NCBI RefSeq assembly: GCF_007859865.1
Contig: NZ_SJPI01000002.1
Coordinates: 62,001 to 126,000, forward strand
Reading direction: 5' to 3'
Source of the DNA: Rubripirellula amarantea
GTDB lineage: Bacteria > Planctomycetota > Planctomycetia > Pirellulales > Pirellulaceae
DNA: 64,000 bases
Part shown: positions 21,819 through 27,303 of the stretch, in pieces
Position numbering within the stretch: position 1 is the stretch's first letter
Layout of the letters: each line of letters opens with the position of its first letter
Made by a program: the position numbers and the translations under genes
Notes under the pieces: model-generated
Databases searched by the model: none
Seen by the model: only the letters and a program-made list of their open reading frames with translations
What the model was told of the DNA's origin: nothing

Positions 21819-22279
21819 GATTGGCTTGATGGTTAGAGAACTCGGCAGGGCGACAACGCTTCACAGTGCCCTGTTCAAAACGCCTTGTTCACAGCGCCCT
21901 GTTCACAGCGCCCTGTTCATAATGCCCTGTTCAAGGGGTATCCCCGTTTCTATCAATCGTAATGGTTTGTATCCGCAGCGTGTTCATCAAGCCACGCCGG
22001 AATTTGTCACGCCAGGACCAGCCAAGTGAGTAGTTAGGTCAGTTGGCACCCTGATTCAATCGCGCTAGCAATCTTAAGTAGATGCTTGCGACTTGCGATC
22101 TGGCTATAAGAGGTCTGCATGATTTGGGGAGCGTGAGAACCAAATTGATGACGCGTGGCTGGCTTGCGACTCGTTCGTCTTGAGACGAAACATTGGATTC
22201 CAGCTCGGTACTCGCCGATAACGATTGTGGCGAATTTTCGTCTTATTCAGGGCACGAAGGAATTGGGGAATTCGCGACG
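21819..22279. other. Divergent intergenic region with a 14-bp repeat array
   Basis: The region holds the promoters of the metallohydrolase and the GAF kinase, neither identified. A five-copy 14-bp tandem array sits at 21860-21929. The frame of the kinase is open back to a TTG at 22193, but no protein feature supports that start. Confidence 0.45.
21860..21929. repeat. Five 14-bp tandem repeats
   Basis: Units at 21860, 21874, 21888, 21902 and 21916 follow TTCACAGCGCCCTG with up to four changes; units three and four are identical. A unit length of 14 rules out a coding repeat. Confidence 0.9.
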
Positions 22280-23491
22280 ATGTTGACGAGCACTCACAGC
22301 GACGCATGCCATTCGTTGACCTTGCGACCATGCAATGTTGAAACCTTGCGATTGGTCGACAGTCCTCCCGAGCCCGAGTTTGACAAGCTGACTCTGCTGG
22401 TTCGTGACGTAATCGACGTACCGGTGGCGCTAATCTCGATCGTAGAAATCGACAAGAACCGCCAATACTTCAAGAGTGCTCAAGGACTTCCCGAGCCATG
22501 GGCGACGTCACGCCAGACTCCGTTGTCGCATTCCTTTTGTCAGCACGTGACGCGTTGCAGCCAACTGTTGCGAGTTGATAACGCTCACGAAGATCCCTTG
22601 GTGGCTCAAAACCTTGCTGTACGTGACCTTGGCGTGGTCGCTTACCTGGGATATCCGATCGTGGATTCCAACGGGTTAGCGATCGGTGCGTTGTGCGCGA
22701 TCGACGTTAAGCCGCGAGCCTGGAGTGACCAAGACGTCAGCCTAATGGCTCGAATTGCCGAATGCGTTTCGGACGTGGTTTGTTTGCGTTCGAGTTTGTT
22801 GACGGTACAGTCGTTGAACGCAGAGCAACTTGCCTTCACTCAAGCTCTTTCACACGACTTGAAAGCACCGGTGAATTCGCTGCACTACCTGTTGTCTGAA
22901 TTGCAAGAGGCATTCAACGAATCCAACGAGGTCGATCACCGGGAACTTGTGGAACTGGGGATGCAAGCGACATCGCGGATGGGGATGCAGATCACGGGAC
23001 TCGCAGAGCTTCACGAAGTCCTGGCAACCGAGTTTGTTTCGTCTCCGGTCAACCTGAACGAAATCTTCGAGGACGCGATCTCTGCATTGCGAGGCATCAT
23101 TCAAGAAAGTAATGCGCAGATCGAATTGTCACCGCTTCCCGAGGTTATTGGTTCGCGTCCCTTGCTGCAGTCACTCTTTCAAAACCTGATCGACAACGCT
23201 ATCAAGTTTCGTGAAAAGGGAAGACGCCCTTCGGTGAAGGTGGGGGTACGTGAGGCCGGTGAGAATGTCGAGGTGAGTGTGGTGGACAACGGCATTGGGA
23301 TACCGGATTGCCATTTCGATCGAATCTTTAAGATGTTCGAGCGGTTGCACTCACAAAGCGACTACCCGGGCACCGGTTTGGGATTGTCGATCTGCAAGCG
23401 AATCGTGGACATGCACGACGGATCGATCTCGATTATCTCGACTCCCAACATCGGAACGCGGTTTACGATCAAACTGAAACGGGCGGCTTGA
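22280..23491 (+). CDS. GAF-domain sensor histidine kinase, cytoplasmic
   Basis: From the ATG at 22280 the protein has 403 residues. A GAF domain (about residues 15-165) contains VPVALISIVEIDKNRQYFKS, SHSFCQHVT and YLGYPIVDSNGLAIGALCAI, the pattern of phytochrome-like GAF sensors, though no chromophore Cys is evident. The HisKA domain follows with H192 in ALSHDLKAPVNSL. The ATPase domain has the N box (LFQNLIDNAIKF), VVDNGIGIP, FKMFERLHSQSDYPGTGLGL and the G2 box. No membrane helix is present, so the signal is intracellular. The stop overlaps the ATG of the regulator by one base, so the kinase very likely phosphorylates that partner. A TTG at 22193 is a longer, less likely start. Confidence 0.9.
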   Translation: MLTSTHSDACHSLTLRPCNVETLRLVDSPPEPEFDKLTLLVRDVIDVPVALISIVEIDKNRQYFKSAQGLPEPWATSRQTPLSHSFCQHVTRCSQLLRVDNAHEDPLVAQNLAVRDLGVVAYLGYPIVDSNGLAIGALCAIDVKPRAWSDQDVSLMARIAECVSDVVCLRSSLLTVQSLNAEQLAFTQALSHDLKAPVNSLHYLLSELQEAFNESNEVDHRELVELGMQATSRMGMQITGLAELHEVLATEFVSSPVNLNEIFEDAISALRGIIQESNAQIELSPLPEVIGSRPLLQSLFQNLIDNAIKFREKGRRPSVKVGVREAGENVEVSVVDNGIGIPDCHFDRIFKMFERLHSQSDYPGTGLGLSICKRIVDMHDGSISIISTPNIGTRFTIKLKRAA

Positions 23492-23925
23492 TGGCGGATA
23501 ACGCAGCGAAACCGACGGTGTTGGTCATCGATGATGATCCGATCGATCGAGCGATCTTTCAACGCATCGAGTCTCGGAATCATTTGTTTCGACGTCTTGA
23601 CCTAGAACCATACGCGGACGATGCACTGCAAAAGCTTCTGAATAAGCCCGATGAATTGCCAGAGATCATCATCGTTGACTTGAACATTCCGCGGATGTCG
23701 GGAATCGAGTTCATTGACGCGATCGAAGCGGGTTTGCCCGATAGGGTCAACGACTTGTACGTCATCATGCTGACCACCTCGGCGTTCGGCAATGATCGGC
23801 AAACCGTCGAACGTCACGACATCGTTAAAGCGTTCATGACTAAGCCCATTCGGCTTGAAGAACTGCAAGACATCATTGGAAAGTTCCAGGCTTGGAATTC
23901 AACGAAAGGTTCCCGCGACATCTAG
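23491..23925 (+). CDS. Single-domain CheY/Rcp1-like response regulator
   Basis: The 144-residue protein is a lone receiver domain: LVIDDDPIDR with the acidic pair, phospho-acceptor D63 in IIIVDLNIPRMSG, T in MLTTSAFG, and K in FMTKPI. The TGATG junction with the upstream GAF kinase indicates coupled translation and a cognate pair. The sequence is closest in style to the Rcp1 group that partners phytochrome-type kinases. With no output domain, it should act through protein binding or as a phosphorelay intermediate, possibly feeding the CsrA-receiver or hybrid kinase downstream. The TTG one codon upstream is ignored in favour of ATG. Confidence 0.92.
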   Translation: MADNAAKPTVLVIDDDPIDRAIFQRIESRNHLFRRLDLEPYADDALQKLLNKPDELPEIIIVDLNIPRMSGIEFIDAIEAGLPDRVNDLYVIMLTTSAFGNDRQTVERHDIVKAFMTKPIRLEELQDIIGKFQAWNSTKGSRDI

Positions 23926-24006: not shown

Positions 24007-24361
24007 CGAAGAATGGGACGTGTCACCGTAGTGGAACCCGTTCAGGATCACGTCCTCAAGCGGACGATGAAGTCGGACTTAGGTGCACGCCAATACACGC
24101 GGTGGTGCTAGCAATCGTCGGCCACGAATACGCGCAAGGATGAATTGACCAGATTCCGAAGCATGCCTAGAATTGCGACGGTGTTTCAGGCAGGGAAGCG
24201 TAGACGAATACGCCGGAGCTAGCTTGAAACGTTGTCGCGATGTCGATGAAGACGCCGCCGACGACTAGGGCAGGACGCGACTCGAATTCTTGCGTCCAAA
24301 GAATCTTTTGTTTCAAGACGCAACTCTCTCTTTTGCGTTTGCAAACAACTGGCATGTTTTC

Positions 24362-24367
24362 AGGAGG
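24362..24367 (+). promoter_or_regulatory. Strong ribosome binding site of the CsrA-receiver gene
   Basis: AGGAGG sits ten bases before the ATG at 24378 and decides the start. It contains GGA, the core of CsrA binding sites, so self-regulation by the product is conceivable (inference). Confidence 0.75.
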
Positions 24368-24377
24368 ATCTCTGTTA

Positions 24378-25310
24378 ATGCTGGTTCTATCCCGTCGCGC
24401 GCAGCAGCAAATTGTATTCCCTGGATTGGGGATCACGCTTAGTGTTTTGCAAGTTCGAGGTCGAATCGTGAAGTTGGGGATTGAAGCTCCCCGTCACGTG
24501 AAGATCAAACGAAACGAAGTCGAATACTTGCCCGATCCTGCCCCGCAATCGTCCGCAAGAACTGTCACATCTAGCGTTTCAACCGCTAACGACAAAGGTT
24601 CGCACGATGAACGCGAACACCACCGTCGCAACCAGCTCAACACGCTTCAGCTTTACATCGACGCCGTTCAAATGCGTTTGGAACGAGGCGATTATGTGGA
24701 CGCCAAGAAATTGGTTCAAACTCTGGTGAATTGTCTCGACCTCGAGGACTACGAAGTCGCAACGCCGTCACCTGTCCCAGCCAATGAAGTCAGCGAGAAT
24801 GCGCGTCAATTGCGTGTTTTGGTCGTCGAGAATTCCGACAACGAACGCGGGCTGATGACATTCCTGTTGGCGTCCCACGGCTTCATCGTCTATGTCGCAC
24901 GCGATGGCGCTGAAGCTCTCGAACAGTTACGACGTGGATGCGGGCTGCCGGACGTGGTTTTGATGGATATCGACATGCCGTTCGCCAACGGACACGAAGC
25001 CCTTAGACGTTTTCGTCAGGACGAAACGCTTAGCGATTTGTTGATCTACGCCGTCACGGGGTCGCATCGAAATCCTGCCGACGAACCTGTTGGACGCAGT
25101 TGGGACCGATGGTTTGCCAAGCCGGTCAACGTTCAACAATTAGTGGATGCCATCCGTGAAGATTGTTTGTCGATCGAATCCCCTTCGTTAGTCGCCCAAG
25201 GTGCGGTGAATGCGCACGGAGTGGATTCGGGTGTGATGGCTGACGGTGTGATGGCTGACGGTGTGATGGCTGACGGTGTGATGGCTGACAGTGTGGAGGT
25301 GAAGCAGTGA
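24378..25310 (+). CDS. CsrA domain fused to a receiver domain
   Basis: Residues 1-50 are a full CsrA: MLVLSRRAQQQIVF, a VLQVRGRIVKLGIEAPRHV core and the KRNEV Arg that normally contacts RNA. Known CsrA proteins are dimers that bind GGA motifs in mRNA leaders and alter translation. A linker with a charged helix (about residues 75-125; RRNQLNTLQLYIDAVQMRLE) leads to a receiver at about 150-270: VLVVENSDNE, phospho-acceptor D197 in VLMDIDMP, T in AVTGS, K in FAKPV. The acidic pocket reads EN rather than DD, so phosphorylation is plausible but not certain. The tail carries four GVMAD units. The stop overlaps the start of the next kinase (GTGA), a likely cognate partner. Confidence 0.9.
   Translation: MLVLSRRAQQQIVFPGLGITLSVLQVRGRIVKLGIEAPRHVKIKRNEVEYLPDPAPQSSARTVTSSVSTANDKGSHDEREHHRRNQLNTLQLYIDAVQMRLERGDYVDAKKLVQTLVNCLDLEDYEVATPSPVPANEVSENARQLRVLVVENSDNERGLMTFLLASHGFIVYVARDGAEALEQLRRGCGLPDVVLMDIDMPFANGHEALRRFRQDETLSDLLIYAVTGSHRNPADEPVGRSWDRWFAKPVNVQQLVDAIREDCLSIESPSLVAQGAVNAHGVDSGVMADGVMADGVMADGVMADSVEVKQ
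25230..25289 (+). repeat. Four perfect 15-bp repeats in a coding tail
   Basis: GGTGTGATGGCTGAC is repeated four times without change at 25230, 25245, 25260 and 25275. It is in frame and encodes GVMAD from residue 285 of the CsrA-receiver protein. Confidence 0.95.
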
Positions 25311-26946: not shown

Positions 26947-27303
26947 GATTGGGGATTCGCCTTTCGCGGCTTTTGGCATCGCTCGGCGAAATCGACGATT
27001 CATCTGCCTTGTCTTCCTTGCCTAGCCGTGACGCGGCTGCTTCGCCATGACACGGCTGTTTCGCCATGACACGGCTGTTTCGCCATGACACGGCTGGCTA
27101 GCCATAACACGGCGGGGGCGAACGCCATCGCAACGGTGTCGTCACGCCAGTGCTATCGCCCCCAACCGATCTCGCCGAGGCGTATACTAGGTTGACCGTG
27201 CTCCCGCTCGGGGGCCACCTTCCTGTGGGCATGTACCTTGCTCTAGCTCAGTTCTGGTTCTGGTTCGGTCCTGCCCCACGCGATCCCACCTCAGTCCCGC
27301 CTA
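26947..27303. other. Intergenic region with a 19-bp repeat array
   Basis: No gene is visible. The array spans 27025-27115. The frame that opens at 27150 on the plus strand overlaps the sialidase in another phase and is not protein-like. Confidence 0.45.
27025..27115. repeat. 19-bp tandem repeat, four copies plus partial
   Basis: Units at 27025, 27044, 27063 and 27082 follow GCCATGACACGGCTGTTTC; the second and third are identical, and a decayed fifth begins at 27101. Confidence 0.9.

Follow-up and report, generated by a model that had tools for sequence, protein, structure and literature searches.

Introduction

Control of the mRNA-binding protein CsrA usually comes from outside the protein, through small RNAs or FliW. 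In signalling relays, phosphate can pass through Spo0B and ChpT, which are DHp-like phosphotransferases, and HPt domains also serve relays. For planctomycetes, an excerpt of PMC4682653 suggests control of CsrA by FliW; the excerpted text of PMC7366521 makes no mention of planctomycetes. According to an excerpt of PMC2222644, Galperin's classification of 2006 had catalogued CsrA as a response-regulator output, so the CsrA-receiver architecture class is already known by name. E. coli CsrA is listed as an orphan response regulator in part of PMC12471899, an entry that does not describe the protein treated here. The literature searched yielded no study, experimental or other, of a CsrA-receiver protein, and nothing on the histidine hairpin, the kinase coupling or the GGA leaders of such a fusion.

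Here we analysed a 64,000-nucleotide stretch of Rubripirellula amarantea DNA (the window) in which a first-pass annotation had proposed that a receiver attached to CsrA may put its mRNA binding under two-component control. Kinase adjacency and signature residues favour this proposal at the sequence level, but a His-bearing hairpin between the two domains shifts the probable route towards a relay.

Results

The window encodes a CsrA-hairpin-receiver fusion

The fusion gene P0001 occupies positions 24378..25310 of the plus strand as a single open frame of 310 aa. Its residues 1-48 (24378..24521, +) form a CsrA domain of an 'FPxLGI' variant, which scored well above the cut-off of Pfam PF02599 (53.4 bits, cut-off 27) and is intact as previously described, with the MLVLSRR start, GIEAP and R45 all present. 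Both NCBIfam csrA equivalog cut-offs were missed (44.0 bits against 73, and 41.8 against 70.1), so P0001 is regarded as a CsrA-domain protein rather than a canonical stand-alone CsrA. The frame is open upstream to an ATG at 24240, and the MLVLSR start with its AGGAGGA is the one common to relatives.

Residues 147-260 (24816..25157, +) form a receiver domain (Pfam PF00072, 55 bits, cut-off 30.2), which Foldseek matched to receiver structures with a best E of 2.1e-9. The phospho-acceptor Asp197 (codon 24966..24968, +), T227 and K248 are intact, as had been claimed. The GTGA overlap was likewise confirmed: the GTG start of the next gene (25307-25309) runs over the TGA stop of the fusion (25308-25310). 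This next gene, P0002 (25307..26905, +), encodes a hybrid kinase with the order DUF4118 - HisKA - HATPase_c - REC, all four domains being above Pfam cut-offs; DUF4118 is a membrane domain.

Several other features surround the gene. A 15-bp tandem repeat, GGTGTGATGGCTGAC, is present in 4.4 copies at 25230-25295 and appears as GVMAD repeats in the C-terminal tail of P0001, just ahead of the kinase start; this repeat is absent from the other 16 rows of the 17-row fusion profile A1. A 19-bp tandem repeat (4.7 copies, 27025-27113) lies 3' of the kinase gene. Just 5' of the fusion, at 22193-23925, a GAF-HisKA-HATPase kinase gene overlaps a single-receiver gene (P0003-P0004), and this pair was rejected as a conserved partner, since the 17-kb surroundings of the fusion in three relatives (G012, G034 and G059) gave no match to it at E ≤ 1e-20. 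The window's own genome (G000) holds seven CsrA-domain genes (L001-L007, the fusion counted) and one FliW gene; L007 encodes a CsrA of 175 aa, whose features include an IPSLGI segment and a long C-terminal extension.

Fusions are spread through the class of the window

Further full-length fusions turned up when 60 relatives were searched at the protein level. Altogether 76 distinct fusions were extracted, P0001 counted, among which L106 stands outside the 75-row alignment used below and is included in the kinase counts. The concern raised earlier that a sequencing error had joined two frames was dismissed, because these homologous proteins come from many genomes, some with two or three of them, and the fusion in P0001 is not an artefact.

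At E ≤ 1e-30, profile A1 matched 52/296 genomes of the order, 79/297 of the class and 16/392 of the phylum, in samples that overlap and with a few of the order and class matches spanning part of the profile; all 16 phylum matches belonged to the window's class or closer. Searches at E ≤ 1e-35 that had no positive control of their own returned no fusion from 299 genomes in the phylum of a Motiliproteus sediminis record (G888), 145 in the phylum of an Omnitrophota record (G884) and 120 in the class of a Phycisphaeraceae record (G889). A scan of named genomes gave at least 80 loci; among the matches listed, four were near-full-query, all from planctomycetes (Isosphaera sp., Thermoguttaceae, Lacipirellula limnantheis and one Planctomycetota). 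As far as sampled, the fusion is planctomycete-restricted.

CsrA and receiver residues are conserved across the family

In the 75-row alignment, CsrA residues were kept at R6 (75/75), R45 (74/75), L4 (70/75), F14 (73/75) and P15 (74/75), of which we take L4, R6 and R45 to be RNA-contact residues. The receiver kept D197 in all 75 rows, D152 in 73, S/T227 in 74 and K248 in 73. The acidic pocket of P0001 reads E151-N152 (Asn152 codon 24831..24833, +), so it does not offer two acidic Mg-binding residues, and Asn152 may weaken Mg binding. The first-pass annotation had read this pocket correctly in P0001, but it is not a family trait: among the 75 aligned proteins, Asp152 is missing, with Asn in its place, only from P0001 and L034, and the two closest relatives of P0001 have it. 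We therefore rejected the notion that the EN pocket makes the family atypical. Judged by these residues, the family receiver is of the working type and the EN pocket of P0001 is the exception.

The other Asn152 protein, L034 (1501-2331, genome G052), has a degenerate receiver, with a Q-N pocket and Thr in place of Lys, and lacks the hairpin His; no kinase was found near it. It is possibly a phosphorylation-independent form.

The linker is a conserved His-bearing hairpin

The segment between CsrA and receiver had been annotated as a helical linker. It is predicted to be helical, but it is more than a linker, with His81 (codon 24618..24620, +), the proposed hairpin phospho-acceptor, present in 68/75. 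AlphaFold2, run with a 17-row alignment (pTM 0.49), placed helices at residues 73-102 and 106-124 of P0001, and mean pLDDT was 61 at residues 71-80, 77-91 at 81-120 and 46 at 121-130. This predicted two-helix hairpin (residues 73-124, 24594..24749, +) has no ATPase domain attached and carries the motif H81-x-x-R84-N85-x-L87-N88, whose other positions are kept in 64 (R84), 65 (N85), 70 (L87) and 48 (N88) of the 75 rows. The motif resembles a histidine-kinase H-box, minus the H-box proline, and P0001 has both the His and the Asn at +4. The residue directly after His81 is acidic in only 31/75.

The resemblance was then assessed with profile methods. The linker set A2 comprised 43 of 60 non-redundant linkers. 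Those omitted were the seven that lack the His plus ten more, which makes the invariance of the His in A2 a matter of selection. Pfam HisKA matched 18/43 of these linkers (best E 2.4e-5) and SPOB_a 2/43 (best 4.3e-4), and Hpt was not among the matches listed (25 of 48 families); the P0001 linker itself matched neither HisKA nor SPOB_a. In hhalign, the hairpin aligned His on His with the HisKA of fetched-locus kinases (probability 97.1, score 49.0, against a maximum of 19.4 in 100 column-permuted nulls and 11.8 for the reversed control), in sets that favour the motif, A2 being free of His-less linkers and an H-box regex having selected the 32 HisKA segments out of 74 kinase ORFs, of which many, not all, adjoin fusions. 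The H-box alone gave a probability of 97.2, and the hairpin minus the H-box gave 2.3 with a score of 12.4, inside the null (maximum 13.6).

When the linker model was searched against 5,262 ORFs including 67 kinase ORFs, four kinase ORFs appeared near the threshold (E 0.13-0.3), outranked by three ORFs that encode no kinase, of which two are small and adjoin fusions. With two ordinary kinases, the hairpin model matched HisKA along ~50 residues, with i-E values of 3.3e-6 and 8.1e-6 in a small database, or 7.7e-5 and 1.4e-4 per genome. By these comparisons, the likeness of the hairpin to HisKA appears to rest on the H-box, and we read the hairpin as DHp-derived without claiming HisKA membership. 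Foldseek is uninformative on the hairpin, since 48/50 matches listed were receivers or receiver-like. TPR models matched up to 8/43 linkers, and TPR/PPR or designed helical proteins made up most of the hits in the PDB; identity with a TPR-like repeat was set aside as less probable, as we judged these matches to reflect the composition of the GxxxxAxxxL helix.

Hybrid kinases adjoin most fusions

Homologues of P0002 adjoin the fusion in G012, G034 and G059 with 71%, 68% and 44% identity. Across the family, a kinase ORF lies ≤1 kb from the fusion in 52/76; none was found for the other 24, of which four sit ≤1 kb from a contig end. The adjacent kinase has its own receiver in the same frame in 45 of the 52 cases; among the rest, four are cut by the stretch end and three are without a receiver. 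Kinases lie downstream on the opposite strand (19), upstream on the same strand (14), downstream on the same strand with DUF4118 (8) or in other arrangements (11). For comparison, random positions were drawn from 20 stretches (20 kb each) of 16 fusion-bearing genomes, and 0/10,000 had a kinase ≤1 kb away. The same search finds one kinase ORF in these stretches; it lies at the end of a stretch, outside the range of positions sampled, and its density would predict ~1%.

Kinase adjacency was compared between fusions with and without His81. A hybrid kinase stands beside 45/65 fusions with His81 and 0/7 without it (72 classifiable, Fisher p 0.0006). For any adjacent kinase, the counts are 50/69 and 2/7 (p 0.03), which supersede an earlier shorter-flank count of 47/69 and 1/7 (p 0.009). 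No kinase was found ≤1 kb from 19 of the 69 His81-bearing fusions, three of these being near contig ends, and L018, one of the seven His81-less fusions, lies 192 bases from a contig end. In a tree built without the linker, His81 changes four times, with one supported independent pair; the association with hybrid kinases is accordingly not significant once kinship is counted, and a tie between His81 and an adjacent hybrid kinase is suggestive only. One locus (L047 7318-11387, genome G021) has two fusion genes separated by ~2 kb. Both lack the hairpin His, and no kinase was found near either; 192 bases lie between the second gene and the contig end.

Short hairpin ORFs occur beside hybrid kinases

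Searching the 60 relatives with only the hairpin brought up fusions, longer frames and six short frames (105-143 aa); the six keep H-x-x-[CRN]-N. Four of them have a large hybrid kinase within ~0.5 kb. L276 (108 aa) is beside a PAS-HisKA-HATPase-REC-REC hybrid kinase, L278 (120 aa) beside another large hybrid kinase, and L277/L284 (135 aa) beside a 1931-aa CheB-CheR-PAS-kinase-REC frame. L279/L285 (143 aa; L279 4592-5020, minus strand, in the window's own genome at G000:C1:1860621) is divergent to a 2018-aa frame with CheB, CheR, PAS, a kinase core and a receiver. For the remaining two, L280 (at a contig start) and L281, no kinase was found near; L281, also in the window's own genome, stands beside genes that we read as dnaG- and fmt-like.

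L277, L278 and L279 align with the CsrA part of the fusion profile ahead of the hairpin, yet have no Pfam CsrA match, so this part is called a CsrA remnant; none has a receiver. In Pfam searches, only L276 touched HisKA (0.0079) and L279 SPOB_a (0.16). The short forms are rare, since the hairpin matches in the class sample (76/297 genomes at E ≤ 1e-5) are nearly always in fusion-length frames. Persistence of the hairpin and its His beside hybrid kinases, with CsrA and receiver decayed or absent, would be expected of a phosphotransfer module. A further 122-aa ORF, with a HAWNNLLNN hairpin, directly follows a fusion gene and neighbours a hybrid kinase frame of 1373 aa (L045 8804-9169, genome G001).

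Fusion genes carry GGA-rich leaders

The leader of P0001 contains AGGAGGA at 24362..24368 (+), likely a ribosome-binding site with GGA motifs and a candidate CsrA site. AnGGA occurs at -20..-1 of 67/76 fusion genes (34/39 at one per 50% cluster), compared with 9/170 background genes, or 13/147 with the longest non-overlapping frames only, the background start codons being predicted. At least two GGA within 60 nt were found in 61/76 fusion leaders vs 26/170 and 25/147 in the background. GGAG itself is commoner before fusions (55/76 vs 20/147), so part of the GGA excess may reflect a strong Shine-Dalgarno sequence and ribosome binding. The leaders suggest CsrA-type autoregulation of the fusion genes.

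The window leader RNA has no unusual fold (z -0.6). Sigma-54 promoters are enriched at CsrA genes of Planctomycetia according to an excerpt of PMC12316311; 22 one-mismatch matches to a sigma-54-like promoter were found in the window, none before the fusion gene.

Discussion

We propose that P0001 is a response regulator with a CsrA output and a histidine phosphotransfer middle, in which a relay from P0002 would change translation, and we give this reading a probability of roughly 0.53. Its middle would be a phosphotransfer module of the Spo0B/ChpT or HPt kind, a DHp-like hairpin with no ATPase domain. P0002 would autophosphorylate on its HisKA histidine and pass the phosphate to its own receiver, from there to His81 of the P0001 hairpin and finally to Asp197 in the P0001 receiver. 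Depending on the state of the latter, the CsrA dimer would present its RNA-binding edges differently, and translation of mRNAs with GGA sites would change as a result, that of the fusion's own leader included. The architecture, its conservation, the kinase association, the short hairpin ORFs beside hybrid kinases and the GGA leaders are features of the sequences themselves; the movement of phosphate and its direction, RNA binding by CsrA within the fusion and the sign of the effect are what we infer from such features.

The nearest competitor is a plain two-component RNA regulator, in which the kinase phosphorylates Asp197 directly and the hairpin serves as a dimerisation or docking platform with His81 as a docking relic. 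DHp hairpins do dimerise and dock receivers, His-less members persist in the family (7/76), the acid after His81 is not conserved and the HisKA similarity appears confined to the H-box. Such a platform would, however, leave His81 with little reason to rank among the most conserved linker positions (68/75), and the adjacent kinases mostly carry their own receiver (45/52), which usually implies a second His. Nor does it sit well with the short ORFs that keep H-x-x-[CRN]-N, 4/6 of them beside hybrid kinases, with no receiver of their own. We consider direct phosphorylation unlikely, and in our view a relay through His81 is more probable than a direct kinase-to-receiver step because the linker is a His-bearing hairpin.

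Those same short proteins, with a CsrA remnant and a hairpin beside hybrid kinases, could point to a phosphate sink or reverse flow, the hairpin and receiver draining the hybrid kinase and CsrA acting mainly as an autoregulated expression controller or tether. Asn at His+4, the position kept in the hairpin, serves phosphatase activity in HisKA kinases. Set against this, the fusions show hardly any variation at the CsrA signature residues, and a sink appears quite improbable. Least probable of all is a phosphorylation-independent CsrA paralogue with a vestigial receiver, acting as a constitutive translational repressor: the E151-N152 pocket of P0001 and the degenerate L034 receiver (QN, K to T) would fit it, but D197, T227 and K248 are intact in P0001, and D152 is kept in 73/75, its two closest relatives included.

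Under the relay reading, the signalling chain could act on CsrA itself, so that environmental signals may control translation directly. If true, the fusion would exemplify two-component control of translation, reveal a new route to a phosphotransfer domain and give experiments a point of entry into planctomycete signalling. We put slightly short of even odds on the broader form of the idea, in which a DHp-derived, ATPase-less His hairpin would serve as a phosphotransfer domain both in the short proteins and in CsrA-hairpin-REC proteins, and hybrid kinases would control translation via a relay ending on an autoregulated mRNA-binding protein. Since the genome has six further CsrA-domain genes and one FliW gene, the fusion may also compete for CsrA targets or hetero-dimerise with other CsrA copies.

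Compared with described systems, P0001 shares with CsrA/RsmA (PF02599) the core of residues 1-48, the signature Arg and the GxxAP loop, and the fusions share with them GGA elements just ahead of the start codon. It differs in that CsrA is joined to a hairpin and a receiver, and in its 'FPxLGI' segment, where four of the stand-alone copies of its own genome (L001, L003-L005) have IGNDI, IGDDI, IGDNI or INNDI. In the BarA/UvrY-CsrB/C-CsrA and FliW-CsrA systems, CsrA activity is likewise under two-component or protein control, but these act via small RNAs or FliW, whereas P0001 has the signal domain in the CsrA chain. Like Spo0B/ChpT and HPt proteins, the hairpin presents a His on a helical hairpin without a working kinase and would serve a relay; unlike Spo0B/ChpT, it has no degenerate ATPase-like domain and is joined to an output and a receiver. 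Finally, P0001 combines a receiver with an RNA-binding output as do response regulators of the ANTAR and CsrA types, and differs from them in its N-terminal output, its extra His hairpin and its coupled hybrid kinase.
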